Origin: Bacillota bacterium
GTDB taxonomy: Bacteria; Bacillota; Dethiobacteria; DTU022
Reading direction: 5' to 3'
DNA length: 64,000 bases
Assembly (NCBI GenBank): GCA_033549065.1
Contig: JAWSUE010000008.1
Span: 1 to 64,000 of the forward strand
Both the position numbers and the translations under genes were made by a program. The notes under the pieces are model-generated. The model was not told where the DNA came from. It did no database searches and saw only the letters and a program-made list of their open reading frames with translations. Shown here in pieces: positions 14,683-44,666 of this stretch (positions are counted from its first letter, which is position 1; each line of letters starts with the position of its first letter).

Positions 14683-14807
14683 TATATTTACACCCCTTTA
14701 TTATTTCAGTTTCAAGATATTGATAATGAGGTTTAATTCTACCCTCCTTTTACCCGTAAGTAACAAGCGAAAAACTTTGCTTCTCCCTGGCATGCATTTT
14801 TCATATT

Positions 14808-29256: not shown

Positions 29257-30570
29257 CTAAAGCGCCTTATCGGCCAGATCGAGGCAGGCATCGACTGCAT
29301 CGAGGCCAAATTTCAGCTCCTCATCGTTAATGGCGATCGGCGGGGCGATGAACATATAGTTCCAGCGCAGGTAGACATATACGCCTTTATCGCGCAGGCA
29401 CTTGTTAATCTGGCCCATGATTCCCGGATCTGGTCCGTTCCAGGGGGCAAGGGGTTCTTTTGTTTCCCGGTCTTTAACCAGTTCTATGGCGGAAAATAGG
29501 CCGATGGAGCGAACATCGCCCACCGTGGGGTGTTTCGCTTTCAGCTCTTCCAGTCCAGCCTTCAGTTTCACACCCATTTGGGCCGAATGCTCAATCAGGT
29601 TTTCTTCCTCGTATACTTTTACTGTGGCAATCCCGGCCGCACAGGCCAGGGGGTGCCCGCTGTAGGTAAGGCCAAACCAGAACATCTTGTCATCATAGTA
29701 TTTGGCTATCTTTTCATTGACAACTATTGCTCCCAGGGGCACATAGCCCTGGGTTAGACCCTTGGCCATGGTCATTACATCGGGAACAACATTAAAATTG
29801 TCGATACCGAACCATTTGCCGGTTCTGCCCCAGCCGGACATTACCTCATCGGCAACCAGTAGAACGCCGAATTCATCACATATTTCCCTGATCCTGGGCA
29901 GGTACTCTTTCGGGGGAACAAATACCCCGTTGGTGCCGGTAACCGGCTCGAGGAATACGGCAGCGATTGTTTCCGGGCCTTCATAGAGCATTATTTCGCG
30001 CACATGTTCGGCGCATTCGAGTCCGCAGCCCGGGTAGGTTTTACCAAAGCTGCAGCGATAGCAGTAGGCGTCGAAGAAACGGACCACACCGGGAAGCAGC
30101 GGTTCGGCCGGGATACGTCGGGGATCTCCGGACAGGCTAAGACCACCAAGTGTTGAGCCGTGATACGAGCGGTAGCGGGACATCACCTTGAAACGTCCGG
30201 TAAATTGGCGAACCAGGTTCATGGCATTATCATTCGATTCTCCACCACCAAGAGTGAAAAATACTTTACAGAGATCGCCCGGTGTGTGCTTGACAACAAG
30301 TTCTGCAAGCTTGCCCCTGGTTTCGTTACCGAAGTTTGGAGCGATATAGCAGAGTTTGTCAACCTGCTCCTTGATTGCGGCCAAAACCCGGGGATGCTGA
30401 TGACCTATATTGGTGTTTACCCACTGGGATGAAAAATCGAGGTATTTCTTTCCATCACGATCCCAGAACCAGCAACCTTTGCCGCCGACAATTTCTTCAT
30501 AGGGCATGGAACCCTGGACAGCCCAGGACCGTAAAACATATTTTCTTTCGAGTTCTTCTGCTGCAGACAT
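29257..30570 (-). CDS. Class III PLP aminotransferase, omega-amino/taurine type (copy 1)
   Basis: A 437-residue fold-type I aminotransferase. Evidence is FFTLGGGESNDNAMNLVRQ (PLP phosphate loop), RYRSYHGSTLGGLSLSG, the Asp of LLVADEVMSGWGRTG, and the Schiff-base Lys in TMAKGLTQGYVPLGA. Overall it resembles taurine:pyruvate and beta-alanine/omega-amino acid aminotransferases. The product would be an aldehyde, which fits the aldehyde oxidoreductase encoded to the right. The true start is the ATG at 30570 (GGAGGG six bases upstream); a longer frame lacks a binding site. It is about 70% similar by eye to the copy at 30902, so a duplication. Confidence 0.9.
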   Translation of the reverse strand: MSAAEELERKYVLRSWAVQGSMPYEEIVGGKGCWFWDRDGKKYLDFSSQWVNTNIGHQHPRVLAAIKEQVDKLCYIAPNFGNETRGKLAELVVKHTPGDLCKVFFTLGGGESNDNAMNLVRQFTGRFKVMSRYRSYHGSTLGGLSLSGDPRRIPAEPLLPGVVRFFDAYCYRCSFGKTYPGCGLECAEHVREIMLYEGPETIAAVFLEPVTGTNGVFVPPKEYLPRIREICDEFGVLLVADEVMSGWGRTGKWFGIDNFNVVPDVMTMAKGLTQGYVPLGAIVVNEKIAKYYDDKMFWFGLTYSGHPLACAAGIATVKVYEEENLIEHSAQMGVKLKAGLEELKAKHPTVGDVRSIGLFSAIELVKDRETKEPLAPWNGPDPGIMGQINKCLRDKGVYVYLRWNYMFIAPPIAINDEELKFGLDAVDACLDLADKAL

Positions 30571-30797
30571 TGGATACCCTCCATTTATTCGACTAGATGT
30601 TTGACTTCTTCTTGACAAAGCAAATCCAATAATTGCCGTTTAAAAAGAAAAAGAGTCACTTTAACTCTGATTTTGGGTATTGGATATTAATAATGTCGAT
30701 AGTCATTCAGACTATAGCATCAAGGATATAATAAAATACAACAAAAATCAATCAGGATTGTAACTTGTATCAGGTTAAGCAGTGAACCATCAGAAAA

Positions 30798-30901: not shown

Positions 30902-32215
30902 TTATAAAACCTTGTCAGCCAGTTCAAGGCATTCGTCAACCGCATCAAGACCAAATTTCATTTCTTCTTCATTTATAGCAATTGGCGGGGCAATAAACAT
31001 GTAATTCCATCTGAGATAAGCGTAAACTCCTTTACTCTTCAGACAGGCGCCAATTTGACCGATTATCCCCGGGTCGGGGCCATTCCATGGAGCCAGTGGT
31101 TCTTTGGTTTCGCGGTTCTTAACCAGTTCGATTGAAGAGAAAAGTCCGATTGCTCGGATATCACCAACCGATGGGTGTTTATCTTTGATCTCTTCTAAAC
31201 GTTTTTTGAGAATTACACCCATAGCAGCTGAGTTTTCGATTAGATTCTCTTCTTCGTAGATCTTGACTGTAGCCACTCCTGTAGCACAGGCCAGCGGGTG
31301 GCCGCTGTAGGTTAAACCACACCAGAGCATATGATCGTCAAAGTAATTGGTGATCTTATCGTTAACCACCACTGCCCCAAGAGGTACGTAGCCCTGGGTA
31401 ACCCCTTTAGCCAAGGTCATAATATCCGGAACTACATTCCAGTTATCGACGCCAAACCATTTACCGGTCCGGCCCCAGCCGGTCATAACTTCATCAGCCA
31501 CCATCAGCACACCGAATTCGTCACATATTTCCCTGATTCGGGGCAGATATTCCTTCGGTGGTACAAAAACACCATTGGTGCCGGTTACAGGTTCGACAAA
31601 GAAAGCAGCTACTGTTTCCGGCCCTTCGTACTGAATTATTTCCCGAACATGCTCGGCACACTCGAGACCGCAGCCTGGATATATCTGGCCAAAACTGCAG
31701 CGGTAGCAGTAGGGTTCAAAGACATGAACTACTCCGGGTATACCAGGTTCAACCGGTGGGCGACGGGGGTCACCGGTCAGGGTAATCGCCCCATAAGTCG
31801 CTCCATGATAAGATCGATAGCGGGCAAGGATTTTAAAACGTCCGGTATAGGCGCGGGCAATTTTAATCGCATTATCGTTGGATTCGGCTCCTCCCAGGGT
31901 AAAGAGGCTTTTCTGCAGATTACCGGGAGTATGTTTGGCGATCAGTTCTGCCAATTGTGCTCGGGGTTCGCTGGCATAGCTGGGAGAAATATAGCAGAGT
32001 TTGTCAGCCTGCGCTTTAAGCGCGGCGATGATTTTAGGGTGCTGATGCCCGATATTCGTGTTTATCAGCTGTGACGAGAGATCAAGGTATTTTTTACCTT
32101 CTTTATTCCAAAACCAGCAACCTTCACCTCCGACAATCTCTTCATAGGTATTTTTGCCCTGGACTGCCCACGACCTCATTACATATTTCCGTTCCAGTTC
32201 CTCAACAGTCGACAT
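30902..32215 (-). CDS. Class III PLP aminotransferase, omega-amino/taurine type (copy 2)
   Basis: A paralogue of the gene at 29257 with the same landmarks: LFTLGGAESNDNAIKIARA, RYRSYHGATYGAITLTG, VADEVMTGWGRTG, and the PLP Lys in TLAKGVTQGYVPLGA. The stretch YCYRCSFGQIYPGCGLECAEH, with five Cys/His, occurs in both copies. The ATG at 32215 has GGAGG at eight bases; a TTG five codons earlier is not needed. It follows the aldehyde oxidoreductase gene by 79 bases, on the same strand. The likely role is conversion of an imported amine or amino acid to an aldehyde, with pyruvate or 2-oxoglutarate as acceptor. Confidence 0.9.
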   Translation of the reverse strand: MSTVEELERKYVMRSWAVQGKNTYEEIVGGEGCWFWNKEGKKYLDLSSQLINTNIGHQHPKIIAALKAQADKLCYISPSYASEPRAQLAELIAKHTPGNLQKSLFTLGGAESNDNAIKIARAYTGRFKILARYRSYHGATYGAITLTGDPRRPPVEPGIPGVVHVFEPYCYRCSFGQIYPGCGLECAEHVREIIQYEGPETVAAFFVEPVTGTNGVFVPPKEYLPRIREICDEFGVLMVADEVMTGWGRTGKWFGVDNWNVVPDIMTLAKGVTQGYVPLGAVVVNDKITNYFDDHMLWCGLTYSGHPLACATGVATVKIYEEENLIENSAAMGVILKKRLEEIKDKHPSVGDIRAIGLFSSIELVKNRETKEPLAPWNGPDPGIIGQIGACLKSKGVYAYLRWNYMFIAPPIAINEEEMKFGLDAVDECLELADKVL

Positions 32216-32294
32216 GACTTCTACCTCCAATAAATTAAAATATGGATTTAAACTGCACTGTCATTAAGGATGATCTACCTTTCATTATTACTGT

Positions 32295-34136
32295 TCAGTC
32301 TAAACCTAACCTGCTCAGTGTTTCAGAAAGGGGAATGCCTTCATTACTCCAACCTCTAAGTTTGTAATACTCGTAGAGCATTTTACCGAGATGGGGTAAG
32401 CTGCCGGCAGCAGCTCCTTCACCGCGGTCATGGGCTAGGAGACGAGGCGACAGTGTGTCGTCTTTGCGACTTATACCCAGCCCACAATTTATTTTACGCT
32501 TTAAATTGAAAAGCCGCTCTCCGGCTTCCATTAATTCTTTCTCGTCGAAAGTCCAGCCGGTAACCCTGGAAACCCATTCAGCAATATTTTTCGGTACGAT
32601 ATGTCCCCGCATTAAGAACTTACATATACCTAAAGCATTGAAAGTAATCATATAATCCTGCATCGTTTTTGCCAAAAGTGGTTTATCTTTAATCCCGTGG
32701 GGATCAAATTCATCCTTTAAACCCATCAAGGAGCCGGGAAAAGCCCTGTTCTCATTAAAATATGTAAGCCCCTCAAGGTGGCAGGCTCCCCGGTTTCCTG
32801 TGGCATAAATCAGGGCCATGCTAGTGAATGCACGGGGATCGTGATAGGCAAATTCCAATCCTTTGCTCTCAACAGCAAATTCCTCTGCCAGCGGTCCAAA
32901 AAATTTTGCGGCTCTCTTCACACCCCGTCCAAGATATTCGCCCAACCCTTCGCGGTAAGCGATCTGGTTAATCAGGGTCAGGATCGCCTCGCCATTACCC
33001 CATTCAGGTTTCAATTCGCCAAGTAATTCTGCAGGGATTAAATCATGTTCATACAGCTCCATCGCAAAAGCGATCACTGCCGAACCCGATATTGTATCAA
33101 TTCCGAGCCGGTTACAAAGATCATTAGCGGTAATAACGTAAGCCGGATCATCATTTAAACACATCGCTCCAAAACCGGCGATGGTTTCATATTCAGGCCC
33201 GTGAGATATAGTACCGCTGTTGGGACCGAGAGGCACTTTCATCTCCTTACCGCAACGTATCGGACAAGCATAGCAGGCATAGTGCTTTACAAAAAACTCT
33301 TCAGCCATCGCCTGGCCCGATACTTTTGCCGCTCCTTCAGTCCAACTTCCCATTGTCCAGTTGCGGATCGGCAGATCACCCAGTTTTTCCACAACAGGAA
33401 CCCCGCCTGCAGTTCCAAAATCACTCAGTCCTTTGGCCTTTTCACGAATGGTTGGCAGAACTTTTTTACGCGCTTCCGAAAGCCCGGCACTATCATTAAT
33501 AGCAGGGTTGTTTTCACTCTTCTTCACCGCAATCGCTTTTAAATTCTTTGAACCCATCAGGGCACCCATTCCGCAACGGCCTGCTGCCCTTGCATCACGG
33601 CCATCGATCATAATTGCTGAAACAAGTACTTCATTTTCACCGGCCGGTCCGATAGCGGCCACTTTTACTTTTTCACCATGTTCAGCCTGCAATTTATCAA
33701 CTGTAGCATAAACATCCTGACCCCATAACTCAGAAGCATCCCTAATTTCAAATTCTCCATCACCAAAATAGAAATAAATCGGTTTTTCCGCTTTTCCGGT
33801 GACTATCAAACCATCATAACCGCTCGTTTTAATTGCTGCCGGCCAGTAACCGCCGACAACTGCTTCCGCCCAGATTCCGGTGGCCGGTGACTTGCCGCAG
33901 AAAGCGGCTTTGCAGGCGGTGGGGATATTGTAACCCGTTAAAATACCGGTCATGATGATGAGCGGTGCTTCTCCCGCCAGGGGCTCAAACCGGGTATATC
34001 CCCGCTGATCGTAAAGTCTGGCCGCTAAGCCGCTACCGCCAAGAAAAAGGCGGTAATCCTCCTTAGGAACTGAAGTCTCTTTCTGCTCACTTGTCGATAA
34101 ATTTATCTCTAAGATTTTTCCGTAGAAACCATACAT
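32295..34136 (-). CDS. aor: Tungsten-type aldehyde:ferredoxin oxidoreductase
   Basis: A 613-residue AOR-family protein. The N-terminal domain has the pterin-binding region (GGSGLAARLYDQRG; MTGILTGYNIPTACKAAFCGKSPATG is the first half). The [4Fe-4S] cluster ligands CYACPIRC (Cys-x2-Cys-x3-Cys) occur mid-chain, with a fourth Cys near ALGICKF in the C-terminal part. These enzymes oxidise aldehydes to acids and reduce ferredoxin. Its place after the ABC importer and before two aminotransferases suggests it oxidises the aldehyde they make. It needs a bis-pterin tungsten cofactor. The start has AAAGGGGATGG close upstream. Confidence 0.93.
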   Translation of the reverse strand: MYGFYGKILEINLSTSEQKETSVPKEDYRLFLGGSGLAARLYDQRGYTRFEPLAGEAPLIIMTGILTGYNIPTACKAAFCGKSPATGIWAEAVVGGYWPAAIKTSGYDGLIVTGKAEKPIYFYFGDGEFEIRDASELWGQDVYATVDKLQAEHGEKVKVAAIGPAGENEVLVSAIMIDGRDARAAGRCGMGALMGSKNLKAIAVKKSENNPAINDSAGLSEARKKVLPTIREKAKGLSDFGTAGGVPVVEKLGDLPIRNWTMGSWTEGAAKVSGQAMAEEFFVKHYACYACPIRCGKEMKVPLGPNSGTISHGPEYETIAGFGAMCLNDDPAYVITANDLCNRLGIDTISGSAVIAFAMELYEHDLIPAELLGELKPEWGNGEAILTLINQIAYREGLGEYLGRGVKRAAKFFGPLAEEFAVESKGLEFAYHDPRAFTSMALIYATGNRGACHLEGLTYFNENRAFPGSLMGLKDEFDPHGIKDKPLLAKTMQDYMITFNALGICKFLMRGHIVPKNIAEWVSRVTGWTFDEKELMEAGERLFNLKRKINCGLGISRKDDTLSPRLLAHDRGEGAAAGSLPHLGKMLYEYYKLRGWSNEGIPLSETLSRLGLD

Positions 34137-34158: not shown

Positions 34159-35415
34159 TTATATATTCTTAGATCTCTTTAATGAAAGCCTATTTACTCC
34201 GTACAGGATCAATATTAGCATAAATGCAGTACTAAAAGCCACGACCATACCTCTTAGACTTTCCATAAGAGCAGGCTTGACCACTAATACCAATCCCAAG
34301 ACTAACATAAGGCTTCCGGCAACAAGTTTCAGGAACCTGCCGGATTCCTCGGTTAATTTTACAGTGCGCATTTTAAGCAGAGCCAGCAAAAAAATCACAA
34401 ACTCATCAGCAAAATAGATAACCAGATAGAGAGCAAATAAAAAAATGTACTCAGCAGTTGACAAGTCAAGCCCGGTGATGATACCGGTCCAGACAAAGGG
34501 AAACCCTGCAGTACAGGGCAGTTCAACCAGAGCTATACCCAAAGCCATTACAGCAGTTGCAGTAATCATGGGGATAACTGATTCTGAATATAAAACCTTC
34601 CTGACCTGACTGTAATATTTTGATTTATAACTGTCAGGAATACTCATGGAGAGGCCTTCCTTAAAGGCAAAATAGTCCTTGATGCCAAGTATCCCGAGGA
34701 TAACAACAATAACCGCCACCAGGTTGCGGATCCAGAAAAGCTGTGAAGCGATCAGCATGATATTTAATGCCCCAAGCATAAACAGTCCGTAGACTATGGA
34801 AGTTACAATTAAGAATGTCAATCCTACAAGCAAAATTCTTTTTCGTGAAGCGGAATGGACGATAATCGCCAGTAAAAAAGTAAGCACGAAAAATGAGCAT
34901 GGATTGAAGCCATCCAGAAAAGCAATGACTACAGTTGTTAAAATTATTGGCGAGGAAAGCAGATCAATTTCTCCGACGAGGGGAAACCGGATAACAGTTT
35001 GCTGCCTCTCCGCAATGTTCTCGTCGAAGGAGCGCTCGACCGCCGCAGCAACATCTTCCAGGATTACATCAGAATCTCCGATCCAGTATTGCTCATTGTA
35101 GATAAAGATCGGAAAAATTATCATGTCGATCCCGAACTCGGCCCTGACCTGGTTGAAATACTCCAAGTTTTCTGAGTTATAGACAACTTCGTAAACTTCA
35201 ATAGGGACAGGGTATTCCTGAAACCTGACCAAATTCTCATCCGGCTCAGTGCACAAAGGGCAATAAGCCCAAAAATAATAAAGGACCTGGTCTTGAAGAA
35301 TGCTTTCCGTTTCTGCAGAATTGGCATATACTAAATCATTAAAGTTCCCCGTCACTATTAGTATTGCCAGTAAGACACATATTGCGATTAATCGTATTGT
35401 TTTTCTTGAAGGCAA
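34159..35415 (-). CDS. Thioredoxin-like domain fused to CcdA/DsbD-type membrane protein
   Basis: A 418-residue protein in two parts. The N-terminal ~140 residues have a signal-like helix and a CPLC motif (YYFWAYCPLCTEPDENL), a CxxC thioredoxin site. The remainder is a six-helix CcdA/DsbD core with the conserved Cys-Pro pairs DGFNPCSFF and LVELPCTAGFP. Such proteins move electrons across the membrane to extracytoplasmic thiols. The TTG start has GGAG about ten bases upstream. It lies between livF (15 bases) and the aldehyde oxidoreductase gene, so it may act on an extracytoplasmic partner of the importer or of the oxidoreductase. A reverse arrangement, a thioredoxin at the N-terminus, is less common than a C-terminal one. 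Confidence 0.8.
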   Translation of the reverse strand: MPSRKTIRLIAICVLLAILIVTGNFNDLVYANSAETESILQDQVLYYFWAYCPLCTEPDENLVRFQEYPVPIEVYEVVYNSENLEYFNQVRAEFGIDMIIFPIFIYNEQYWIGDSDVILEDVAAAVERSFDENIAERQQTVIRFPLVGEIDLLSSPIILTTVVIAFLDGFNPCSFFVLTFLLAIIVHSASRKRILLVGLTFLIVTSIVYGLFMLGALNIMLIASQLFWIRNLVAVIVVILGILGIKDYFAFKEGLSMSIPDSYKSKYYSQVRKVLYSESVIPMITATAVMALGIALVELPCTAGFPFVWTGIITGLDLSTAEYIFLFALYLVIYFADEFVIFLLALLKMRTVKLTEESGRFLKLVAGSLMLVLGLVLVVKPALMESLRGMVVAFSTAFMLILILYGVNRLSLKRSKNI

Positions 35416-35429
35416 AAGCTTGGGCTCCT

Positions 35430-36137
35430 TTAACTTATTCCCAGATAAACCTTCTTCATTTCCTCATTTTTCAAAAGCTCTTGGCTGGGACCGGCAAGCG
35501 AAATACGACCATTTTCGAGAACAAAGCCTCTGCTGGCAATCTCGAGGCTTTTTTGCACATTTTGCTCAACAAGCAGAATTGTAATGCCCTGTTTGTGCAG
35601 CGTTTTAATCGCCTCGTAAACAATGTTTACAATGGTGGGCTGCAAACCCAGAGAAGGTTCATCAATCATTAAAAATTTAGGCGCCGACATCAGAGCCCGG
35701 CCAACAACCAGCATCTGCTGTTCTCCCCCGCTAAAGGTTCCTGCCATTTGGCTTTGTCTTTCTTTAAGCTTCGGAAATAGTTCAAACACCCGGTCAAGAT
35801 TTTGCTTAACTTTATTGTTATCACTCTCGATGTAGGCACCGAGTTCCAGGTTTTCTTTAACTGTCATGTAGGGGAAAACCCTTCTGCCTTCAGGAATGTA
35901 GGCAAGACCTTTGGCGACAACCTTGTGAGCCTGCACTCCAACGAGCGATTCCCCTTTAAAAACAATATCGCCGGAGATCACTTTAATTGCTCCAGAAATG
36001 GTCTTCAGGATCGTACTTTTACCAGCCCCGTTAGAACCAACAAGAGCAACAAGTTCGCCCTCTTCAACGGTGAAGGAAACATCCCAGATAACCTGGACCC
36101 CTTTATAGCCAACTGATAATTTTTTAACTTCCAACAT
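35430..36137 (-). CDS. livF: Branched-chain-type ABC transporter ATPase LivF
   Basis: A 235-residue ABC ATPase: Walker A (VGSNGAGKST), signature (TFSGGEQQMLVVGRAL) and Walker B (FLMIDEPSLGLQP). It has the LivF-type marks LSVGYKGVQVIWDVS and YIPEGRRVFPYMTV. The start at the ATG 36137 has GGAGGAAAAAG upstream; the longer frame is not needed. It overlaps livG by 14 bases. It powers the importer encoded with livG, livH, livM and livJ. Confidence 0.94.
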   Translation of the reverse strand: MLEVKKLSVGYKGVQVIWDVSFTVEEGELVALVGSNGAGKSTILKTISGAIKVISGDIVFKGESLVGVQAHKVVAKGLAYIPEGRRVFPYMTVKENLELGAYIESDNNKVKQNLDRVFELFPKLKERQSQMAGTFSGGEQQMLVVGRALMSAPKFLMIDEPSLGLQPTIVNIVYEAIKTLHKQGITILLVEQNVQKSLEIASRGFVLENGRISLAGPSQELLKNEEMKKVYLGIS

Positions 36138-36873
36138 TTGCTTTTTCCTCCTTCCCGAGGTAAGCATTGATCACTCGTTCATTTTCTGAGATCTCTTCTG
36201 GCGTGCCTTCAGCGATGATCTGTCCTGTATCGAGTACAATGATTTTTTTACAGAGACTCATAATTACCCGCATCACGTGTTCAATTATAACCAGGGTGAT
36301 GCCCATTTCTTCATTTACTTTACGCAAGACCTGAAGGCATTTTTCAATTTCGGTAAGGTTAAGACCGGCCATCAGTTCATCCAAAAGAAGCATTTTCGGT
36401 TTTGTTGCCAAGGCTGTTGCCAGACACAACTGCTTTTGGCGCGCTGATGTAAGACTGCCGGCAATCTTTTTGTGATCATCTTCAAAACCGGTTAACTCAA
36501 GTAGATGTTCAATTTCAAAAGGTTGATAAGAACATTTGGAAAAGCAGGATTTGCCAGCTACGGCGCCCATGACAACATGCTCGTAAACTGTTAATTCCCT
36601 GAAAACCTTGACCACCTGAAAAGTTCTGGCGATCCCCTTTTTGCAGATCAGAGAAGGTTTGAGCTTTTCAATCCGTTCGCCCTCGAATTTAATGCTGCCT
36701 GCAGTGGGCTGGTGTTCACCGGCGATCATTCCAAAAGTAGTGGTTTTGCCCGCACCATTAGGCCCGATAATACCTGTAATGCTACCTTTTTCTACCGAAA
36801 AATCAATATTGTTAACCGCAGTCAACCCACCAAACTGTTTTTTTAATCCTTTAACCTCGAGTATGTTTTCCAT
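36124..36873 (-). CDS. livG: Branched-chain-type ABC transporter ATPase LivG
   Basis: A 249-residue ABC ATPase with Walker A (IIGPNGAGKTT), a signature-like stretch (SLTSARQKQLCLATAL, in which the canonical LSGGQ is replaced by LTSAR), and Walker B (LLLDELMAGLN). The replaced signature is typical of LivG-type proteins. The ATG overlaps the livM stop (TAATG), indicating translational coupling. It is the partner ATPase of LivF. Confidence 0.94.
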   Translation of the reverse strand: MENILEVKGLKKQFGGLTAVNNIDFSVEKGSITGIIGPNGAGKTTTFGMIAGEHQPTAGSIKFEGERIEKLKPSLICKKGIARTFQVVKVFRELTVYEHVVMGAVAGKSCFSKCSYQPFEIEHLLELTGFEDDHKKIAGSLTSARQKQLCLATALATKPKMLLLDELMAGLNLTEIEKCLQVLRKVNEEMGITLVIIEHVMRVIMSLCKKIIVLDTGQIIAEGTPEEISENERVINAYLGKEEKANVGS

Positions 36874-37853
36874 TACTGTGACCTCCTGAAGCGAATTCTT
36901 TTGGCCATCCCCATCAAACCTTTGGGTTCGAAAACCAAAATGGCAATCAGCGCGGCAGCCCAGATAATATATCTAAGCTCTGGAGCGTACCTGAAGAGTT
37001 CGAGAACAAAGGTAACCACTGCAGCACCGAGGACTGGACCAATCAAGGTGCCAGCACCACCGACCAGAGTCATGATTACCACCATTTCTGAAGTAAACCA
37101 GGCGAACTGCGACGGGTGAAGCAGCAGAAAAAAGTGGGCAAAAAGCGATCCGGCAAGCGCTGCCAGGGCTCCACTGATGCTGAATGAAAGAACCTTGTAG
37201 AACGAAGTATTGACTCCCAGCGATTCCGCCAGGTCTTGATCCTCGCGGATCGCCACGAAACGTTTACCGATTTCAGTTTTATAAATCAGGTAGTATAAGA
37301 AAAGAACTACCAAGATTGTAAAGATTAAAACAAAATAAAAGTATACATTCATCGAGGAAAAATCTATCGGTCCGATGTTCGGAGGAGGCTGTACGCCTCT
37401 TAAACCCATCGGCCCCCCTGTGAGCTGGTTGGTATTCAGAAACACCAGGTAAACAAAATGAGCCAGAAAAAATGTTGTAACAGCAAAGTAAGAACCCCTT
37501 AATCTTAAGGCAGGAGCCCCGACCAATACCGCAATTATAAAGCCGACAATAATAGTAATGACAAATGCCAGCCAGAAATTAAGGCCAGCCATCAAGGTCA
37601 ATAGCGCTGAAGTGTAGGCACCCAGGCCGAAAAAAGCGCCCTGTGAAAATGACAGCTGGCCGGTATAGCCAAAAATAAGGTCATAACTGGCTGTCAGCAT
37701 CGCATATAACAAAGCCAGGGTAGCTACATAAATCACATAGCGGGAAAAAAACACCGGCACAAAACTTATTGCCACTACTACAACCAGTGCAGCTATCCAC
37801 ATTCGGTAATTTATTTTATTTGTAATGGTAGAATTACTTTTCGCCAGTTCCAT
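36873..37853 (-). CDS. livM: Branched-chain-type ABC permease LivM
   Basis: About 326 residues, eight or more hydrophobic segments, with the LivM marks YDLIFGYTGQLSFSQGAFFGLGAY near the start and GGAGTLIGPVLGAA near the end. The ATG at 37853 has GAGGTG six bases upstream. It forms the membrane channel with LivH. Confidence 0.93.
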   Translation of the reverse strand: MELAKSNSTITNKINYRMWIAALVVVVAISFVPVFFSRYVIYVATLALLYAMLTASYDLIFGYTGQLSFSQGAFFGLGAYTSALLTLMAGLNFWLAFVITIIVGFIIAVLVGAPALRLRGSYFAVTTFFLAHFVYLVFLNTNQLTGGPMGLRGVQPPPNIGPIDFSSMNVYFYFVLIFTILVVLFLYYLIYKTEIGKRFVAIREDQDLAESLGVNTSFYKVLSFSISGALAALAGSLFAHFFLLLHPSQFAWFTSEMVVIMTLVGGAGTLIGPVLGAAVVTFVLELFRYAPELRYIIWAAALIAILVFEPKGLMGMAKRIRFRRSQ

Positions 37854-37922
37854 AATTTCACCTCTCATATCACATTATCAAACAGCTCATAGCCTACTCT
37901 GACAGACTATGTAGCCCGAAGA

Positions 37923-38777
37923 TTATTCTTTCCGCGAGCCAAACAGACCCTGCGGCCTAAAAATTAGGACGATCAAGAGAATAATAAAAGCATAGCCATG
38001 CTGGTATGATGTAGAGATATAGCCTGCCCCCAAGCTTTCCAGTACACCTAGCCCCATACCGGCAATTAAAGTACCACCGAGGCTTCCTTTACCACCCAGG
38101 ATAACAACTACAAGAGCTTTTAATAAAGGCAATTCACCCATCATCGGATAAACAGCAAATACAGGTGCAATCAAGGTTGCCGCTATTCCGGACAGTGCTC
38201 CTCCCATGGCGAATATAATCGAAAAAACCTTATTTATATCAATACCCATCCAGGGCGCTACTTCGATATCCTGGGTTGCTGCCCTGATTGCTTTTCCGGT
38301 TTTGGTTTTTTTCAAAAACAAGTTGATAACAACAAAAAGAATAATAACAACAACAATAATCATCAATCTCTGGTAAGAAACACCCACGCCGAAAATGTTT
38401 ACTACTCCTTTTATGTAGTGTTCGAGATTCAAGGATTTTGCGGTCCAGAGATAGATAGCCAGGTTGGCCAGCAGGAAAAAGAGAGCTATCGCACATAAAA
38501 GCTGAATGTGGTCTGTTCTGCCCCGCCAGCGACGGTAGAGCAATTTTTCAAAACTGTAAGCCATAATTGCCCCAACCAGCGCTGCAACAAGCATCGCGAT
38601 GTACCAGGGTATGCTTAATGAAGTAATGCAAAAATATACTACGTAGGCTGCAATTACATAAATACCGCCCTGGCTGAAATCCGGGATGTCGGTGATACTC
38701 CAGATCAGGTTCAGACCTAAAGCTATCAGGGCGTAGATTGAGCCTAAAACCAGCCCGTTTATTATGTATAATTCCAA
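37923..38777 (-). CDS. livH: Branched-chain-type ABC permease LivH
   Basis: A permease with about eight hydrophobic segments and the LivH marks SIYALIALGLNLIWSITDIPDFSQG and LGGKGSLGGTLIAGMGLGVLES. The likely start is the TTG at 38777, with AAAGGAGAG six bases upstream; the ATG eight codons earlier would include that site. It forms the membrane channel with LivM. Confidence 0.92.
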   Translation of the reverse strand: MELYIINGLVLGSIYALIALGLNLIWSITDIPDFSQGGIYVIAAYVVYFCITSLSIPWYIAMLVAALVGAIMAYSFEKLLYRRWRGRTDHIQLLCAIALFFLLANLAIYLWTAKSLNLEHYIKGVVNIFGVGVSYQRLMIIVVVIILFVVINLFLKKTKTGKAIRAATQDIEVAPWMGIDINKVFSIIFAMGGALSGIAATLIAPVFAVYPMMGELPLLKALVVVILGGKGSLGGTLIAGMGLGVLESLGAGYISTSYQHGYAFIILLIVLIFRPQGLFGSRKE

Positions 38778-38853
38778 ACTGAACTCTCCTTTCTGTAACA
38801 TAGAGGTAAGTTCTTAAAACCTTTAGATGGCAGGCTGTATAATCAAGGAAGAA

Positions 38854-38967: not shown

Positions 38968-40149
38968 TTATTTAACCAAAACCATATCTCCATCTTCCCA
39001 CCTGATCAGATAAGGCACATAGAATCCCTGGTTCTGATAGCCATCGAAATCCTTGAATTCTGTAAAGCCGGCAAGCGTTTCATAAGTTCCGGCTTTCAGA
39101 GCATCCCTGATGTCTTTCGGGTCCAGTGACTGGGCTCTTGTTATTGCATCCGCTAAAACATACACCCCGTCGTAGGCAAAGATGATCGCGTAATGTAACG
39201 GTGCATTATACCTGGATAATACTGCAGCTTCCAGTTCGGCAGGCGCTTCCCCGTAAAGGGCAATAGCGTAGGTTCCTTCCAGCACTTCAGCTCCGGCCAG
39301 ATCCAGCATTTCGTACGATGCCATTTCTTCCGCCCCATAGAAAGCAACATCCGGAATCATGCCCATTTCATAAGCCTGCTCCAGGAGCAACGCACCTTCA
39401 GTCGATGTGCCTACATAGCCAACCATGTCAGGTTCAAGCTGACTGATTTTGCTGAGCAAAATTGTATAGTCGGTTGTGCCGCGCTCAAAGTACTCTTCTG
39501 CCACGGTTTCCACACCAAATTCGATCAGCCCTTCCTGATGAGTTTCAACCCAGGAACGGCCGTAATCGTCATTTACAGCTACAAAAGCAATAGTAGCCGG
39601 TTGGATAGCTTCAAAAATTGGTCCTGCGGCCAGTGGGCTCATCAAGGCCATGTCAGGCCTCATCCTGAAAAAGTATGGATGTCCGGGCTTGGTAACGGCT
39701 TCTGCTGCACATTCAATGGTGATACCCGGCACTTCATATGAATCGGCCAAGGGAGCAATAGCCATGCAGCAGGAACTGCAGTGGTCACCGAGGAATGCTA
39801 CTACTCCATCTTCCAGAATCATTTTATGAACCGAAGCAACCGACTGGGTAGGTTCACAGACACTGTCATAGCGAACAATCTCGATCGTATATACCTCTCC
39901 ATCGATTACTATTCCCTGGGCGTTTACTTCGTCTACAGCAATTTCAACGCCCCTCAAACCGTTGGTGCCAAACTCAGCGGCCGGTCCAGTGAATGGTGCA
40001 ACGTAACCGATCTTAATTACATTATCTCCGGTAACTGTTTCCAGTTCGGTATCAGTGTCTGGAACGCCGCTATCAGTCTGGCAGCCAAGCACCATAAAGA
40101 TTACCAGCAGCATAATCAAACATAATAGAAATATTTTTGAAATCCTCAA
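38968..40149 (-). CDS. livJ: Branched-chain-type ABC substrate-binding lipoprotein LivJ
   Basis: A 393-residue periplasmic-binding-type protein with a lipobox (IFMVLGC) near residue 23 and the LivJ-like marks IKIGYVAPFTGPAAEFGTNG and VAFLGDHCSSCCMAIAPLADS. It would sit on the outer face of the membrane and feed ligand to LivHM. The family transports leucine-type amino acids, but several branches carry amides, urea or other amines, so the substrate must not be taken as leucine. The start is TTG with GGAGG ten bases upstream. It heads the importer operon. Confidence 0.93.
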   Translation of the reverse strand: MRISKIFLLCLIMLLVIFMVLGCQTDSGVPDTDTELETVTGDNVIKIGYVAPFTGPAAEFGTNGLRGVEIAVDEVNAQGIVIDGEVYTIEIVRYDSVCEPTQSVASVHKMILEDGVVAFLGDHCSSCCMAIAPLADSYEVPGITIECAAEAVTKPGHPYFFRMRPDMALMSPLAAGPIFEAIQPATIAFVAVNDDYGRSWVETHQEGLIEFGVETVAEEYFERGTTDYTILLSKISQLEPDMVGYVGTSTEGALLLEQAYEMGMIPDVAFYGAEEMASYEMLDLAGAEVLEGTYAIALYGEAPAELEAAVLSRYNAPLHYAIIFAYDGVYVLADAITRAQSLDPKDIRDALKAGTYETLAGFTEFKDFDGYQNQGFYVPYLIRWEDGDMVLVK

Positions 40150-40318
40150 ATGGAATATTCCTCCTTGTGATTCGAAATTAACCCGCCTTTAACTGTTGAA
40201 AACCACCCACCTTAAATAATTGAGTTTAGCCAGCACCACCCCCTACAAAATATTTTCGAAAACTGCAGAGCGTTATGGGATACTTTCGGTAGAATAAGTA
40301 AATAATAAGTATTTAATT

Positions 40319-40334
40319 GCATTATTCATGCCAG
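40319..40334 (-). promoter_or_regulatory. Sigma-54 promoter for the liv operon
   Basis: On the minus strand the sequence CTGGCATGAATAATGC contains the -24 GG and -12 GC at the exact 10-base spacing (TGGCAT, five bases, ATGC). It lies about 170 bases upstream of livJ. Next to it, ATTGCA, seven bases, TGCAAT (40337-40355) forms an inverted repeat that might bind an activator. Confidence 0.65.
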
Positions 40335-40378
40335 AATTGCACAATTCATGCAATACTAAATATTATATTTTTTAAGCC

Positions 40379-40407
40379 TTGACATCGTCTTATTTATTCT
40401 TTATTAA
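40379..40407 (+). promoter_or_regulatory. Sigma-A promoter facing the mtb operon
   Basis: TTGACA, 17 bases, TATTAA on the plus strand, with a full -35 box. No protein gene follows on this strand before 45 kb. Confidence 0.5.
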
Positions 40408-40413
40408 GGAGGT

Positions 40414-40580
40414 ATAAGGATAAGGGTGAAGAAATAGCCGGGGAAACAAGTGAATTTTATCACAATTTAATTAAGGCAAAGATGAATTATGCTGAGTCTT
40501 TTTTGACTCACGCTAAATCGGAGGAATAAAAAGAAATAAGGGAAAGCTTCTGATGAACTTCCCCTTATTTCTTTTTATTC
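40414..40580 (+). ncRNA. Candidate small RNA between mtb and liv operons
   Basis: A transcript from the plus-strand promoter would be about 165 bases, GA-rich at first, with a hairpin TGAGTC-TTTTTT-GACTCA (40493-40510), and would end in the long bidirectional hairpin at 40524-40580. It contains no reading frame worth naming. It is the only plus-strand element in a 15-kb minus-strand region. Confidence 0.35.
40524..40580. terminator. Long bidirectional terminator hairpin after mtbC
   Basis: Nineteen-base arms (GAATAAAAAGAAATAAGGG and its complement) enclose a nested smaller stem. AT-rich outer arms give T-runs in both directions. On the minus strand it lies 20 bases past the mtbC stop. Confidence 0.75.
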
Positions 40581-40599
40581 TCATGCCAGCATGAGCATT

Positions 40600-41244
40600 C
40601 TAACCAATCAGCTTAATGATCTTATTTACGCCCTCCCCGGCATTCTCCGCGTAAGCATCGGCGCCGATTTTTTCCGCCCAGCGTACGGTAACCGGTGCGC
40701 CTCCGACAATGGTTTTGTACTTGCTCTTCAAACCTTCCTTGACTAGGGCATCTTCCAGCTCTTTCTGTTTGACCATCGTCGTAGTTAAAAGAGCGCTGGT
40801 GCCGATAACATCAGCCTTGAACTCTTCGGCCTTGGCAATAATGTCCAGCGTTGGCACATCGCGGCCCAAATCCAAGATATTAAAGCCATTTGCTACGAGC
40901 AACGATACAACAATTGCCTTACCGATATCGTGGATATCTCCCTCTACCGTAGCAATGAGCACGTTGCCCTTGTTACTTTCCGCTCCACCGGTAATGGCGG
41001 TATTGAGAATCTCCGTAGCTTTTTTTACCACTTCCGCGACCTGGATCAGTTCGGGTAAAAAGAGTTCGCCGCATTCGAACATGTCGCCGACCTGCTTGAT
41101 CCCCACCACGTATCCTTCATTAATTACCTGAAGAGGATCCATTTTCTGTTCCAACGCCTGGCGGGCTAACGCTTCAGCACCGGCTTCGTCTCCTCCAACC
41201 ACTGATTCGATAATTTTTTTAATAAAATCAATGTTATCTGCCAT
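40600..41244 (-). CDS. mtbC: Corrinoid protein of methylamine methyltransferase system (MtbC-like)
   Basis: A 214-residue two-domain protein. The N-terminal helical cap (residues ~1-90, EGYVVGIKQVGDMFECGELFLPELIQVAEV) and the Rossmann-like B12-binding domain (GDIHDIGKAIVVSLLVANGF, with the His ligand in DxHxxG) carry a corrinoid. It accepts a methyl group from MtbB and passes it to a second methyltransferase (MtbA/MtsA-like or tetrahydrofolate type), which is not in the window. The start ATG at 41242-41244 has GGAGG six bases upstream. It overlaps a UAA four codons beyond the mtbB UAG. The presence of the corrinoid partner next to mtbB confirms the methylamine assignment. Confidence 0.93.
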   Translation of the reverse strand: MADNIDFIKKIIESVVGGDEAGAEALARQALEQKMDPLQVINEGYVVGIKQVGDMFECGELFLPELIQVAEVVKKATEILNTAITGGAESNKGNVLIATVEGDIHDIGKAIVVSLLVANGFNILDLGRDVPTLDIIAKAEEFKADVIGTSALLTTTMVKQKELEDALVKEGLKSKYKTIVGGAPVTVRWAEKIGADAYAENAGEGVNKIIKLIG

Positions 41245-41255
41245 TAATTAGCCTC

Positions 41256-42641
41256 CTAACGCCACCCGGTTTTTCTTAAAAATCGGCTTACAGAATTTAT
41301 TTCAAGGTCCAGCAACTGCGCAATGCGAAACTTTGCTTCAATCCCTCTCGACTGCTCACCCATCCCGCTATAAACCGTAGCAATATCTAAGGCCTGGCGC
41401 ACTTCATTCATGATCACTTCGTTAGAAAGATCGGTTACCGAAACTTTTAACTTTCCGGCTACATATTCCTTGGCTTCGTTTAGACGCATCTTCTTCGACA
41501 TTTGCATCCGGGCCACCAGATCTCCGGCAGTCCGTATTCCACCCATGCCAGAAGCATGCATATGAGTTAAAGCCATCCCGGCAGGATCGCCGTAGCCTAC
41601 CTATAACCCGTCGAGTTTACCGACTTCAGCCATGGCCGTTGAAACTCGCGATACACAATCGATCGGCGGGGTCATTACCAGCGGTACCGCCCCGACCCCC
41701 ATGCCAACGTTAGCGTGAACAGGGATATTTGCCGCCTCTACACAGGCCTTGCAAAAAGTAACGGCTCTTCCTAAGTTCCAGGGGAACGAACGGCTGCTGT
41801 TAGTGTTAACCACGGCGCCAAAAATACTGGCCCCCGCTTTTTCGGCCAGTTTAACCTGCTGGTGCGGGTAAAGACCGGCCAGGCGCACCCCGTCGTAAGA
41901 CAGCTGTCCGTGAAAACCGAGGACAAATTCACCGGCCATGCCGATTTCGATCGCCATATCGGGATACTTGGCCCGCAACTGTTCACAGGCCAATAACGTT
42001 GCCTGAAACTCGGCATCACCGGCCGCTGCTGTGGTATCAAAGTTGATCCCGTCGGCCCCGGCTTCATAAACGCCGCTGCCGACAAAAACCATATCTTTAA
42101 CAGCATACTCAACCGCTTCTTCCTGGGCCGCCCTTGCTTCGGCAATCTTGCCAGCCGGCAAAAGTTCAGCGGCATTGGGGCAGGGTCCGTCAGGCTGAGT
42201 GTATAGCGGCAGGTTTGGCATCGCCCCGTAGAAGAGCGGCGCTGTTGTAACTAGGGAAGTTTCAGCAACCGCGTACTGCTCCTCGGGCACAATCATCTTG
42301 ATCGGTTTGAAACTGTAATGAACATAAGCCAGCTCCAGCGTGTCAGCAGCAAAAGCCCGCTCGTAAATCTGCATAATCTGGGGCATGCCGATCGGAATCC
42401 CTAGACGGGTGATTTTAAGGGTTCCTGAATCATAAGTTAAGATCAGCTCGTTGCCATGCTGCACGCTGACAAATTTTTGCGGACGGCAGCAGATATCGAC
42501 AATACAGTCGATTTCATCTGTAAAAAGAGGCTCGATCTTGCCGCGTTTAACAGCATCCTCCACTCCCTCCTGAACATCTGCTTTTACTTCTTCTTCACTC
42601 ATCGTTACAAAGTATCCATCACCCATTCTGGTTACAATCAA
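41256..42641 (-). CDS. mtbB: Dimethylamine methyltransferase MtbB with in-frame UAG (pyrrolysine, codon 347)
   Basis: Two open frames, 42641-41604 and 41600-41256, are joined by a single UAG at 41601-41603 in the same frame, so the whole chain is 461 codons. Around the UAG the residues are KLDGL-[UAG]-VGYGDPAGM, which matches the pyrrolysine site of archaeal MtbB (DGI-Pyl-IGVGDPLGM). Other shared marks are RMGDG at the N-terminus, LFYGAMPN, DGINFDTTAAAGDAEF, YDGVRLAGLYPHQQ and AGDLVARM. It should transfer a methyl from dimethylamine to the corrinoid protein. Start is TTG, with AGAGGTG seven bases upstream. The pylTSBCD genes are not in the window. Confidence 0.93.
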
Positions 42642-42725
42642 TTAAGAACACCTCTTTTACTATCGTTGATATTTAATAACCTAAAATCTGAATTTCACCA
42701 ATGGAATGGCTAAGAAATATATAGT

Positions 42726-42742
42726 GCAATTTTTCTGCCAAG
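42726..42742 (-). promoter_or_regulatory. Sigma-54 promoter for mtbBC
   Basis: On the minus strand TTGGCAG, five bases, TTGC is present with -24 GG and -12 GC spaced by exactly ten bases. Initiation would fall about 70 bases upstream of mtbB. This is an unusually good match to the consensus. Confidence 0.85.
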
Positions 42743-42822
42743 TCCTGAAAAATAGAAATTGCTTTAGTTAGCGTAGGTGTTGAGAATAAAGATATGATAT
42801 AAATTCGAGCGGGGATGAATAA

Positions 42823-42836
42823 TCGGAGATCTCCGA
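42823..42836. promoter_or_regulatory. 14-bp palindrome, candidate activator site
   Basis: TCGGAGATCTCCGA is a perfect 14-base palindrome lying about 85 bases upstream of the mtbB sigma-54 promoter. That distance is typical for an enhancer-like binding site of a sigma-54 activator. Only one full copy was seen in the region by eye. Confidence 0.6.
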
Positions 42837-42863: not shown

Positions 42864-42887
42864 TGCTAAGTCATTTATGACTTAGCA
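42864..42887 (-). terminator. Terminator after the sigma-54 activator gene
   Basis: TGCTAAGTCAT, two bases, ATGACTTAGCA, an 11-bp stem, followed on the minus strand by TAAGTTTTTATTATG. It lies 23 bases past the activator's stop. Confidence 0.75.
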
Positions 42888-42909: not shown

Positions 42910-44598
42910 TTATTTAGCATTATTGTCATTAAGATATTTGCGGATTTTCCTGATAGCACTGCTCTGGCTGATTCCAAGAGAACTGGCCACTTTGTAAGAA
43001 CTGCCGTGTTTTTTGTAACTGTTTGTCACAAGCTCCCGTTCTACCGCTTCGAGAGTAGTTTCAAGCCTGGAATTTTCCAGCGGGAAAAATAACTTTTTAC
43101 TGTGCTGGGTGATATGAGGGGGCAGATGTTCTATCTTAATTTCTCTGGTCGTAACAGTGACGGTTAATAACTCTGTCAGATGCTTAAGTTCCCTTACATT
43201 ACCCGGCCAGTTGTAATTAACCAGAACATTTATAGCATCGGTTGTGAGTTTGATTTTACGGCTGTGTTTTTCAGAAAAAATTCCTAAATAGTGATTGAGT
43301 AAGGTCGGAATATCTGTTTTACGCTCGCGCAGAGGGGGAATTTCGATTGACAGCACACAAAGCCTGTAATAAAGATCCTCACGAAAAGCCCCTTCGCCAA
43401 TCATCCTTTTCAGGTCGCGGTTTGTTGAAGCAATAATCCGAACATTAACTTCCTCAACAGCGCTGGATCCGATTGGGGTAAATTTCTGCTCTTCAATAAC
43501 CTGCAAGAGTTTCGGCTGCAAAGAAAGTGGTACCTCTCCAATTTCATCTAAAAAAATTGTGCCCCTGTCGGCAAGTGAGAACCGTCCAATTTTGCCCTTC
43601 GGGCTTGCGCCGGTAAAAGCGCCGGACTTGTAACCAAAAAGTTCGGATTCAATTAATTCCTGCGGCAGCGCTGCGCAGTTGATTTTTAAAAACTGCTTGT
43701 TCCGCCTGCTGCTTAAGTCATGCACCTGCCTGGCAAAAAGATCCTTGCCGGTTCCAGTTTCACCTTGCAGCAAAACGACGCTTTCAGTCTGGGCAATACG
43801 CCTGGTCATCTGCAATAGCTCTGCAATCGGTGAATCTCCGGCATACACCAACTGACTGCTTTCGACTTCAGCGCTTTTTTTCATGCAAAGTCCTGTCTGC
43901 TTATTATGCACTTTCTGCTTAATATCATGATAACTTTTTTTCATATCCTCAAGAGCAGTAACATCCCTGGAGTTGCAAATGACCATCTCAATTTCATTTT
44001 TATTATTAAAAATAGGGGTGGCAGTGAGCATCAGTTTTTTCCCGATCCCGGTTTCTTGATCAATCGTAATCTTTTTCTTTTCCCGCAGGACCATCGGTGT
44101 TACTGCCGGATAATAAATACCTCTTTCCTCGAGTTCCCAAACGCTCTTTCCAATCATCTCCGATACCGGTATGCCGTAGTGACTTTCGCTTACCGGATTG
44201 GCGAAAATTATTATTCCCTTACCGTCGGTGATAAAAACCTCGTCGCAGGAACCATTAATTATCGTTTCATAAAAATTGATCTTCTTTTTTAAATCCTTAA
44301 TGGATTCGTTTACCTGAGGTTCACCAATCTGTTCTTTATCTTGTAGAATAGCCAGATAAATAAAAGGTAGTTCCTGGGCATGTCGAATTTCACTTACTCT
44401 AACCAGATAAGTTATTTTTTGGCCTTTAGATAAGAATGAGTTTCCATCCTGCATTAATTCTCCAGGCCAGATTTTGCTCCAACTGTCGCCAATGGTTATA
44501 GAATAATCTGCATTACCACTTTTTTGTACACCACAAACATACCCTTCCTGATTGAAGAGAACAGCATAAAAAGAATTTTTCTGTTCTTTCCTTTTCAT
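42910..44598 (-). CDS. Sigma-54-dependent transcriptional activator with PAS domain
   Basis: A 562-residue protein in three parts. A PAS domain is seen at residues ~105-225 (DEVFITDGKGIIIFANPVSE, NSRDVT). The AAA+ sigma-54 core follows (Walker A GETGTGKDLFARQ, GAFTGA loop in YKSGAFTGASPKG, Walker B in GTIFLDEIGEV). A C-terminal Fis-type helix-turn-helix ends the chain (VASSLGISQSSAIRKIRKYL). It should sense a metabolite or redox state via PAS and open sigma-54 promoters. Both mtbB and livJ have such promoters, so it is the likely regulator of the whole island. The ATG at 44598 has GGAG eight bases upstream. Confidence 0.93.
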   Translation of the reverse strand: MKRKEQKNSFYAVLFNQEGYVCGVQKSGNADYSITIGDSWSKIWPGELMQDGNSFLSKGQKITYLVRVSEIRHAQELPFIYLAILQDKEQIGEPQVNESIKDLKKKINFYETIINGSCDEVFITDGKGIIIFANPVSESHYGIPVSEMIGKSVWELEERGIYYPAVTPMVLREKKKITIDQETGIGKKLMLTATPIFNNKNEIEMVICNSRDVTALEDMKKSYHDIKQKVHNKQTGLCMKKSAEVESSQLVYAGDSPIAELLQMTRRIAQTESVVLLQGETGTGKDLFARQVHDLSSRRNKQFLKINCAALPQELIESELFGYKSGAFTGASPKGKIGRFSLADRGTIFLDEIGEVPLSLQPKLLQVIEEQKFTPIGSSAVEEVNVRIIASTNRDLKRMIGEGAFREDLYYRLCVLSIEIPPLRERKTDIPTLLNHYLGIFSEKHSRKIKLTTDAINVLVNYNWPGNVRELKHLTELLTVTVTTREIKIEHLPPHITQHSKKLFFPLENSRLETTLEAVERELVTNSYKKHGSSYKVASSLGISQSSAIRKIRKYLNDNNAK

Positions 44599-44666
44599 CA
44601 AAATGTCTCCATGATTAACTGATCATACAAGATCAGTCAAAGTGTAGTTGCCCAAGAGTCGATCAG

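Follow-up and report, generated by a model that had tools for sequence, protein, structure and literature searches.

Our analysis indicates that two adjacent operons on the minus strand of the window, which is the whole 64-kb stretch of DNA analyzed and belongs to the 2.39-Mb draft genome (61 contigs) of an anaerobic bacterium, each begin at a predicted sigma-54 promoter, and that the gene for a sigma-54 enhancer-binding protein (EBP) and a perfect palindrome are located upstream of the first of them. The element of interest extends from 40319 to 42836 (minus strand). The order on this strand is the activator gene, a hairpin, the palindrome, the mtb box, mtbB, mtbC, a second hairpin, the liv box, livJHMGF, and the genes for a membrane protein, an aldehyde ferredoxin oxidoreductase (AOR), and two aminotransferases. 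The sigma-54 reading is well supported by the sequence, and we favor a putative regulon whose products would import, demethylate, and transaminate an N-methylated amino compound. The genes apparently under its control hint at the breakdown of N-methylated amino compounds, not of free methylamines.

The two -24/-12 boxes, TGGCAGAAAAATTGCA (42725-42740, minus strand) and TGGCATGAATAATGCA (40318-40333, minus strand), are located 99 nt ahead of the called mtbB start and 184 nt ahead of the livJ start, respectively. Each has a single mismatch to TGGCAYRN4TTGCW, with an intact GG and an intact GC separated by 10 bases, in agreement with the earlier note, which had reported a -24 GG and a -12 GC at the exact spacing before mtbBC and livJHMGF. 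In dinucleotide shuffles, an equally good box appeared in 17 of 5000 for the mtb intergenic region (268 nt) and in 48 of 5000 for the liv intergenic region (450 nt). Only three one-mismatch sites are present in the window, namely these two boxes and a site at 14788 (plus strand) that has no GC, and the genome contains 85 sites with at most one mismatch, compared with 30 for the reversed pattern. That one or both boxes are chance matches, with sigma-70 promoters doing the transcription, is highly improbable. Sites with up to two mismatches are no commoner in the window than in shuffles (25 found against 29.8 expected, so there is no excess over chance), and a few sigma-70-like sites matching at 9 of 12 positions occur in the region; however, a chance origin is difficult to reconcile with the position, orientation, and spacing of the boxes, the low shuffle counts, the conservation of the liv box, the adjacent EBP, and the single RpoN gene of the genome. 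In our judgment, the two promoters are very probably sigma-54-dependent. An inverted repeat, ATTGCACAATTCATGCAAT (40336-40354), abuts the liv -24 box on its upstream side, too near to be an activator site, and is possibly the site of a repressor or second factor. On the plus strand, a stretch at 40379-40580 with a TTGACA word and a hairpin at its end, judged by eye only, is a possible source of a short RNA lying opposite to the liv leader.

The activator gene (42910-44601, minus strand) codes for a protein with PAS, Sigma54_activat, AAA lid, and HTH_50 (E 5.2e-9) domains, and the GAFTGA loop is present in the translation. The protein has the features of an EBP, namely a sigma-54 interaction AAA+ domain with the Walker A/B motifs and GAFTGA, and a C-terminal HTH. 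The PAS/AAA+/HTH activator gene described earlier as immediately upstream was thus recovered, on the same strand and with these domains. A hairpin resembling an intrinsic terminator (42864-42887, minus strand; z -4.7) separates it from mtbB. The nearest NCBIfam model is that of the proline-reductase EBP PrdR (NF041552), but the score of 387.6 bits is far under the cut-off of 795, and PrdR has other target genes. A search of 59 relatives turned up no orthologue of the activator, the best full-length matches being about 40-43% identical, which weighs against the mechanism proposed below.

The candidate activator site (UAS) is the perfect 14-mer palindrome TCGGAGATCTCCGA (42823-42836), 82 bases from the mtb -24 box and close to the distance of about 85 bases given before. 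Its dyad falls within the range of roughly 80-250 bp upstream of the box expected of a UAS. The promoters of sibling activators contain TGATGY-N6-RCATCA palindromes at -94 to -176 from the box, which support TCGGAGATCTCCGA as a putative UAS by position, not by sequence. Among 22 promoter regions, this pattern was perfect in four (L243, L247, L158, L253) and had one mismatch in three (L249, L250, and L171, the last with a shorter spacer), and it was found mainly with activators of the aminotransferase type. It is unlikely that the palindrome is fortuitous or a repressor site. A perfect 14-mer palindrome arose in 61 of 5000 shuffles (about 1 in 80) of the 121-nt stretch from the terminator to the -24 box, TCGGAGATCTCCGA is the sole genomic copy at fewer than two mismatches, and UASs are often multiple according to passages of PMC6615313, all of which fit that reading; however, the distance is correct, and palindromes occupy the equivalent position at sibling activators. 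The window holds five perfect 14-mer palindromes of any sequence. A UAS common to all mtb-linked activators was also sought and none was found; these activators fall in several EBP clades.

According to the mechanism that we propose, the PAS-type EBP encoded just upstream would sense an intracellular small molecule and, in oligomeric form, bind the 42823-42836 palindrome; by looping of the DNA it would then activate sigma-54 RNA polymerase at the promoter of mtbBC. The liv promoter, past the terminator and likewise of the sigma-54 type, would drive livJHMGF and the membrane protein, AOR, and aminotransferase genes. We infer that the same activator probably governs this operon too, via a weaker site or a shared upstream enhancer; more speculatively, the mtb site about 2.5 kb away might serve both operons, as enhancers act at a distance. 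Between them, the products of the two operons would take up an N-methylated amino compound and strip its methyl group with the pyrrolysine enzyme MtbB and the corrinoid protein, after which the freed amine would be transaminated and the resulting aldehyde oxidized. The scheme is built on the promoters, the activator type, the palindrome, the gene content, and the conserved mtb-liv linkage as read from the DNA, with binding, co-regulation, and substrate as its predictions, and as a whole we consider it somewhat probable.

The interpretation in the earlier note is upheld in part. The two sigma-54 promoters, the adjacent EBP, and the well-placed palindrome are supported, whereas control of both operons by one sensor stays a hypothesis: the palindrome does not recur upstream of liv (the best ungapped match, 8 of 14 bases, is equalled in 826 of 1000 shuffles), nor does a TGATGY-N6-RCATCA site occur there, and in the divergent relative G006 the liv box is kept without the window activator. 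The only word that the liv upstream region has in common with the palindrome and flanking bases is the 8-mer CTCCGATT, and 104 of 2000 shuffles do as well; a UAS shared by mtb and liv was rejected because there is no second palindrome and this 8-mer is unconvincing. The adjacent activator might instead control mtbBC only, with the liv-AOR-aminotransferase genes driven by another EBP, such as a paralogue of the aminotransferase regulator at C10 of the same genome. We consider this rather unlikely, although the missing liv palindrome and the G006 box agree with it. The C10 paralogue, 40% identical to the activator, precedes a perfect box and an aminotransferase-AOR pair; the genome codes for ten strong Sigma54_activat proteins (strong EBPs), so another could serve liv; and most EBPs (65%) in 57 Clostridiales control one operon, as stated in passages of PMC6615313. 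However, the region upstream of liv does not contain a TGATGY-N6-RCATCA site of the paralogue's kind, and mtb and liv remain linked in relatives.

This linkage is seen at the best LivJ relative (81%, G006:C36), which also lies behind mtbC. The mtbC-livJ intergenic region of G006, otherwise poorly conserved, has the box TGGTACGATTAATGCA 189 nt from livJ, compared with 184 nt in the window, and such placement occurred in 8 of 5000 shuffles. None of the three strong Sigma54_activat proteins of G006 is an orthologue of the activator by score, though the liv box is kept. In L035, livJHMGF is located upstream of a truncated mttB and mtbBC. Linkage of liv to mtb is thus conserved, as is the liv box. 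The mtb promoter, by contrast, was found not to be conserved in the nearest MtbB orthologues, since in L032-L036 (84-94% identical) mtbB directly follows mttB, which occupies the place of the window's promoter. The promoter-activator unit before mtbB in the window seems to have arisen by local rearrangement. In two relatives, L218 (5690-6190) and L035 (4206-4622), remnants of a truncated mttB adjoin mtbB on its upstream side, which suggests repeated loss of mttB.

The gene mtbB (41256-42641, minus strand) has one internal in-frame UAG, at codon 347, matches Pfam Dimeth_Pyl, and scores 503 bits against the dimethylamine equivalog model TIGR02368, above the cut-off of 369. A PYLIS_2 element (41504-41603, minus strand) was matched at this UAG by Rfam with 73.6 bits (gathering 36), and the genome has PylS and, adjoining it, a tRNA-Pyl with anticodon CTA. 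The mtbB label of the earlier note was thus upheld. The gene that it calls mtbC (40600-41244, minus strand) codes for a corrinoid protein but falls below the cut-offs of TIGR02370 (209.2 vs. 215.3) and of the MtbC equivalog NF041607 (191.8 vs. 350). The stop codon of mtbB is also UAG (41256-41258), and read-through would end about three codons on, near the mtbC start. Two more mtbB paralogues, L161 and L162 (C2 and C4), are present in the genome, and their 19-kb stretches have no -24/-12 box at up to one mismatch.

Between mtbC and livJ, a strong hairpin with a U-rich 3' arm (about 40521-40582, minus strand; z -7.1) is a probable terminator. The minus-strand genes that follow were rightly named livJHMGF and were confirmed as ABC components. 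Domain matches identify the livJ-like solute-binding protein (38968-40149) and the permeases livH (37923-38801) and livM (36873-37868), and these are followed by the ATPase genes livG (36124-36873) and livF (35430-36167). The transcription unit appears to continue, on the same strand, into AOR and aminotransferase genes. Next to livF is a gene (34159-35415) for an orphan 418-aa membrane protein with a CxxC, CcdA/DsbD-like by eye and with no Pfam match even at E 5, of which G006 has a 58% identical copy in the same place, between livF and AOR. AOR (32295-34136) was identified by a domain match and precedes a class-III aminotransferase gene (30902-32230) and a second of the same type (29257-30618), whose operon membership is uncertain because of a 283-nt gap. 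Both aminotransferases pass the NF004718/PRK06062 cut-off (554 and 548.5 vs. 472), and their best match among solved chains, by a wide margin, is taurine:2-oxoglutarate aminotransferase (6jix; 408.5 vs. 288.6 and 387.3 vs. 275.2 bits).

The function assigned to the locus by the earlier note, methylamine demethylation plus import, is probably wrong, as the operon appears to reach the AOR and aminotransferase genes and MtmB is absent both here and in every one of the 14 genomes of the family that have MtbB. Demethylation of R-NH-CH3 to R-NH2 would feed an aminotransferase directly, so MtmB would be unneeded. Judged from context only, a liv-type, amino-acid-like importer fits a secondary N-methyl amine better than free dimethylamine, and the genome context argues for an N-methyl substrate of MtbB other than dimethylamine. 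In a count over 70 other MtbB loci, with the window itself left out, aminotransferase relatives were present beside MtbB at 9 of the 17 loci with at least 57% identity and at none of the 53 below it, and AOR at 6 of 17 and 0 of 53, respectively; the 57% split was chosen after the table had been seen, and the Fisher p for aminotransferase linkage of 3.7e-7 is too small owing to relatedness. When only loci of at least 9 kb are considered, the aminotransferase counts are 8 of 14 and 0 of 43. The aminotransferase-linked loci occupy at least three positions in the MtbB tree (from which L073 and L084 were left out as too short), with different aminotransferase subfamilies; in L041 (Desulforhopalus singaporensis) and L073, the neighboring enzyme is GABA-transaminase-like.

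Archaeal MtbB acts on dimethylamine. The methyltransferase studied here might likewise handle free dimethylamine, with liv, AOR, and the aminotransferases serving unrelated amino acid uptake and catabolism. This is a serious possibility, if a less than even one, as MtbB keeps the pyrrolysine codon and passes the dimethylamine equivalog model in addition to the activity of its archaeal namesake. However, it leaves the recurrent aminotransferase linkage of the nearer MtbB types and the absence of MtmB in the family unaccounted for. As to the N-methylated amino compound that we favor, we tentatively suggest, with some doubt, that the 'dimethylamine' methyltransferases of this MtbB lineage use pyrrolysine to demethylate N-methylated amino acids or sulfonates, and that a sigma-54 activator induces them along with AOR, an omega-aminotransferase, and a dedicated importer of the liv type. 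The candidate substrates in this equally tentative proposal would be secondary amines, e.g., N-methyltaurine and N-methyl-omega-amino acids; a literature search for N-methyltaurine gave nothing relevant.

Similar layouts were observed elsewhere. In the same genome, a perfect -24/-12 box stands just past the stop codon of the EBP genes at both C10 and C12. Fourteen distinct mtb loci have a nearby EBP (L033, L040, L041, L064, L065, L070, L073, L074, L077, L078, L089, L170, L171, L214), and in nine of them, spanning Bacillota and Thermodesulfobacteriota, a box with up to one mismatch is located within 500 nt of the EBP and points away from it (L040, L041, L064, L065, L073, L078, L089, L170, L171). 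L170 and L171 have one perfect box for mttB and another for mtbB. The box as a universal feature of mtbB was rejected, since 66 of 73 mtbB loci have none within 400 nt of the gene; among the seven that do, that of L063 is spurious, as it arose from a negative start coordinate, and the 73 include five repeats of the same contigs (L172-L174, L211, L212). Controls gave 0/73 for the reversed pattern and 2/73 for the opposite strand.

In the EBP tree (38 rows), the window activator stands alone on a long branch, with a weak link to L240 (88/80), within a superclade of 25 of the 38 rows (100/100). This superclade holds 12 of the 13 fetched EBPs that adjoin class-III aminotransferase genes outside mtb loci, and these 12 are set apart from the rest by a branch (100/99); AOR is also in the stretch for 11 of them. 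Five mtt/mtb-linked activators are in the superclade as well. This aminotransferase linkage makes the AOR-aminotransferase operon a natural second target for the window activator. The L166 activator, from the same genome as the window and beside an aminotransferase and an AOR relative, falls outside the superclade, is unlabelled in the tree, and counts against the link between clade and function, which thus appears strong but not exclusive. The motif filter missed the L171 activator, which the tree does not include.

The regulatory layout itself is of a known, ordinary kind. Passages of Nie et al. (PMC6615313) describe the general architecture of sigma-54/EBP catabolic regulons in Clostridiales, which, as in the window, have a one-component PAS-AAA+-HTH activator adjoining the target operon and a UAS upstream of a TTGGCAT-N5-TTGCT promoter, at distances given there as 100-250 bp. 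In contrast to the window, the targets in Table 1 of that paper do not include a methylamine or pyrrolysine methyltransferase, and a word search of its text gave no 'methylamine', 'methyltransferase', 'trimethylamine', or 'betaine'. Sigma-54 control of a corrinoid-dependent methylamine methyltransferase, MttB (COG5598), has already been predicted in Clostridia (PMC12316311); however, that enzyme is MttB, not MtbB, and neither activator, UAS, nor importer is named for it in the passages concerned. Sigma-54 is not discussed in the relevant passages of PMC6778437 and PMC9768040, and in the open-access literature we found no paper on sigma-54 control of mtbB. With our results, the likely sigma-54 targets of anaerobes come to include a pyrrolysine demethylation operon that has a candidate activator site. 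Should the substrate reading prove correct, pyrrolysine would serve N-methylated amino compounds beyond mono-, di-, and trimethylamine, and the methyl group, nitrogen, and carbon skeleton would all be harvested.

Two further arrangements deserve mention. In L158 of the same genome (8027-13162), an EBP gene, a perfect sigma-54 box, a GABA-transaminase-like gene, and AOR follow one another, with palindromes upstream of the box, and this cluster is a cleaner model for this activator type. In the sulfate-reducer relatives L041 (3357-12350) and L073 (4422-9128), an EBP gene and a sigma-54 box are followed by a GABA-transaminase-like gene and mtbB in one run, after which L041 also has an AOR relative, and these runs are promising places to look for N-methyl amino acid demethylation.
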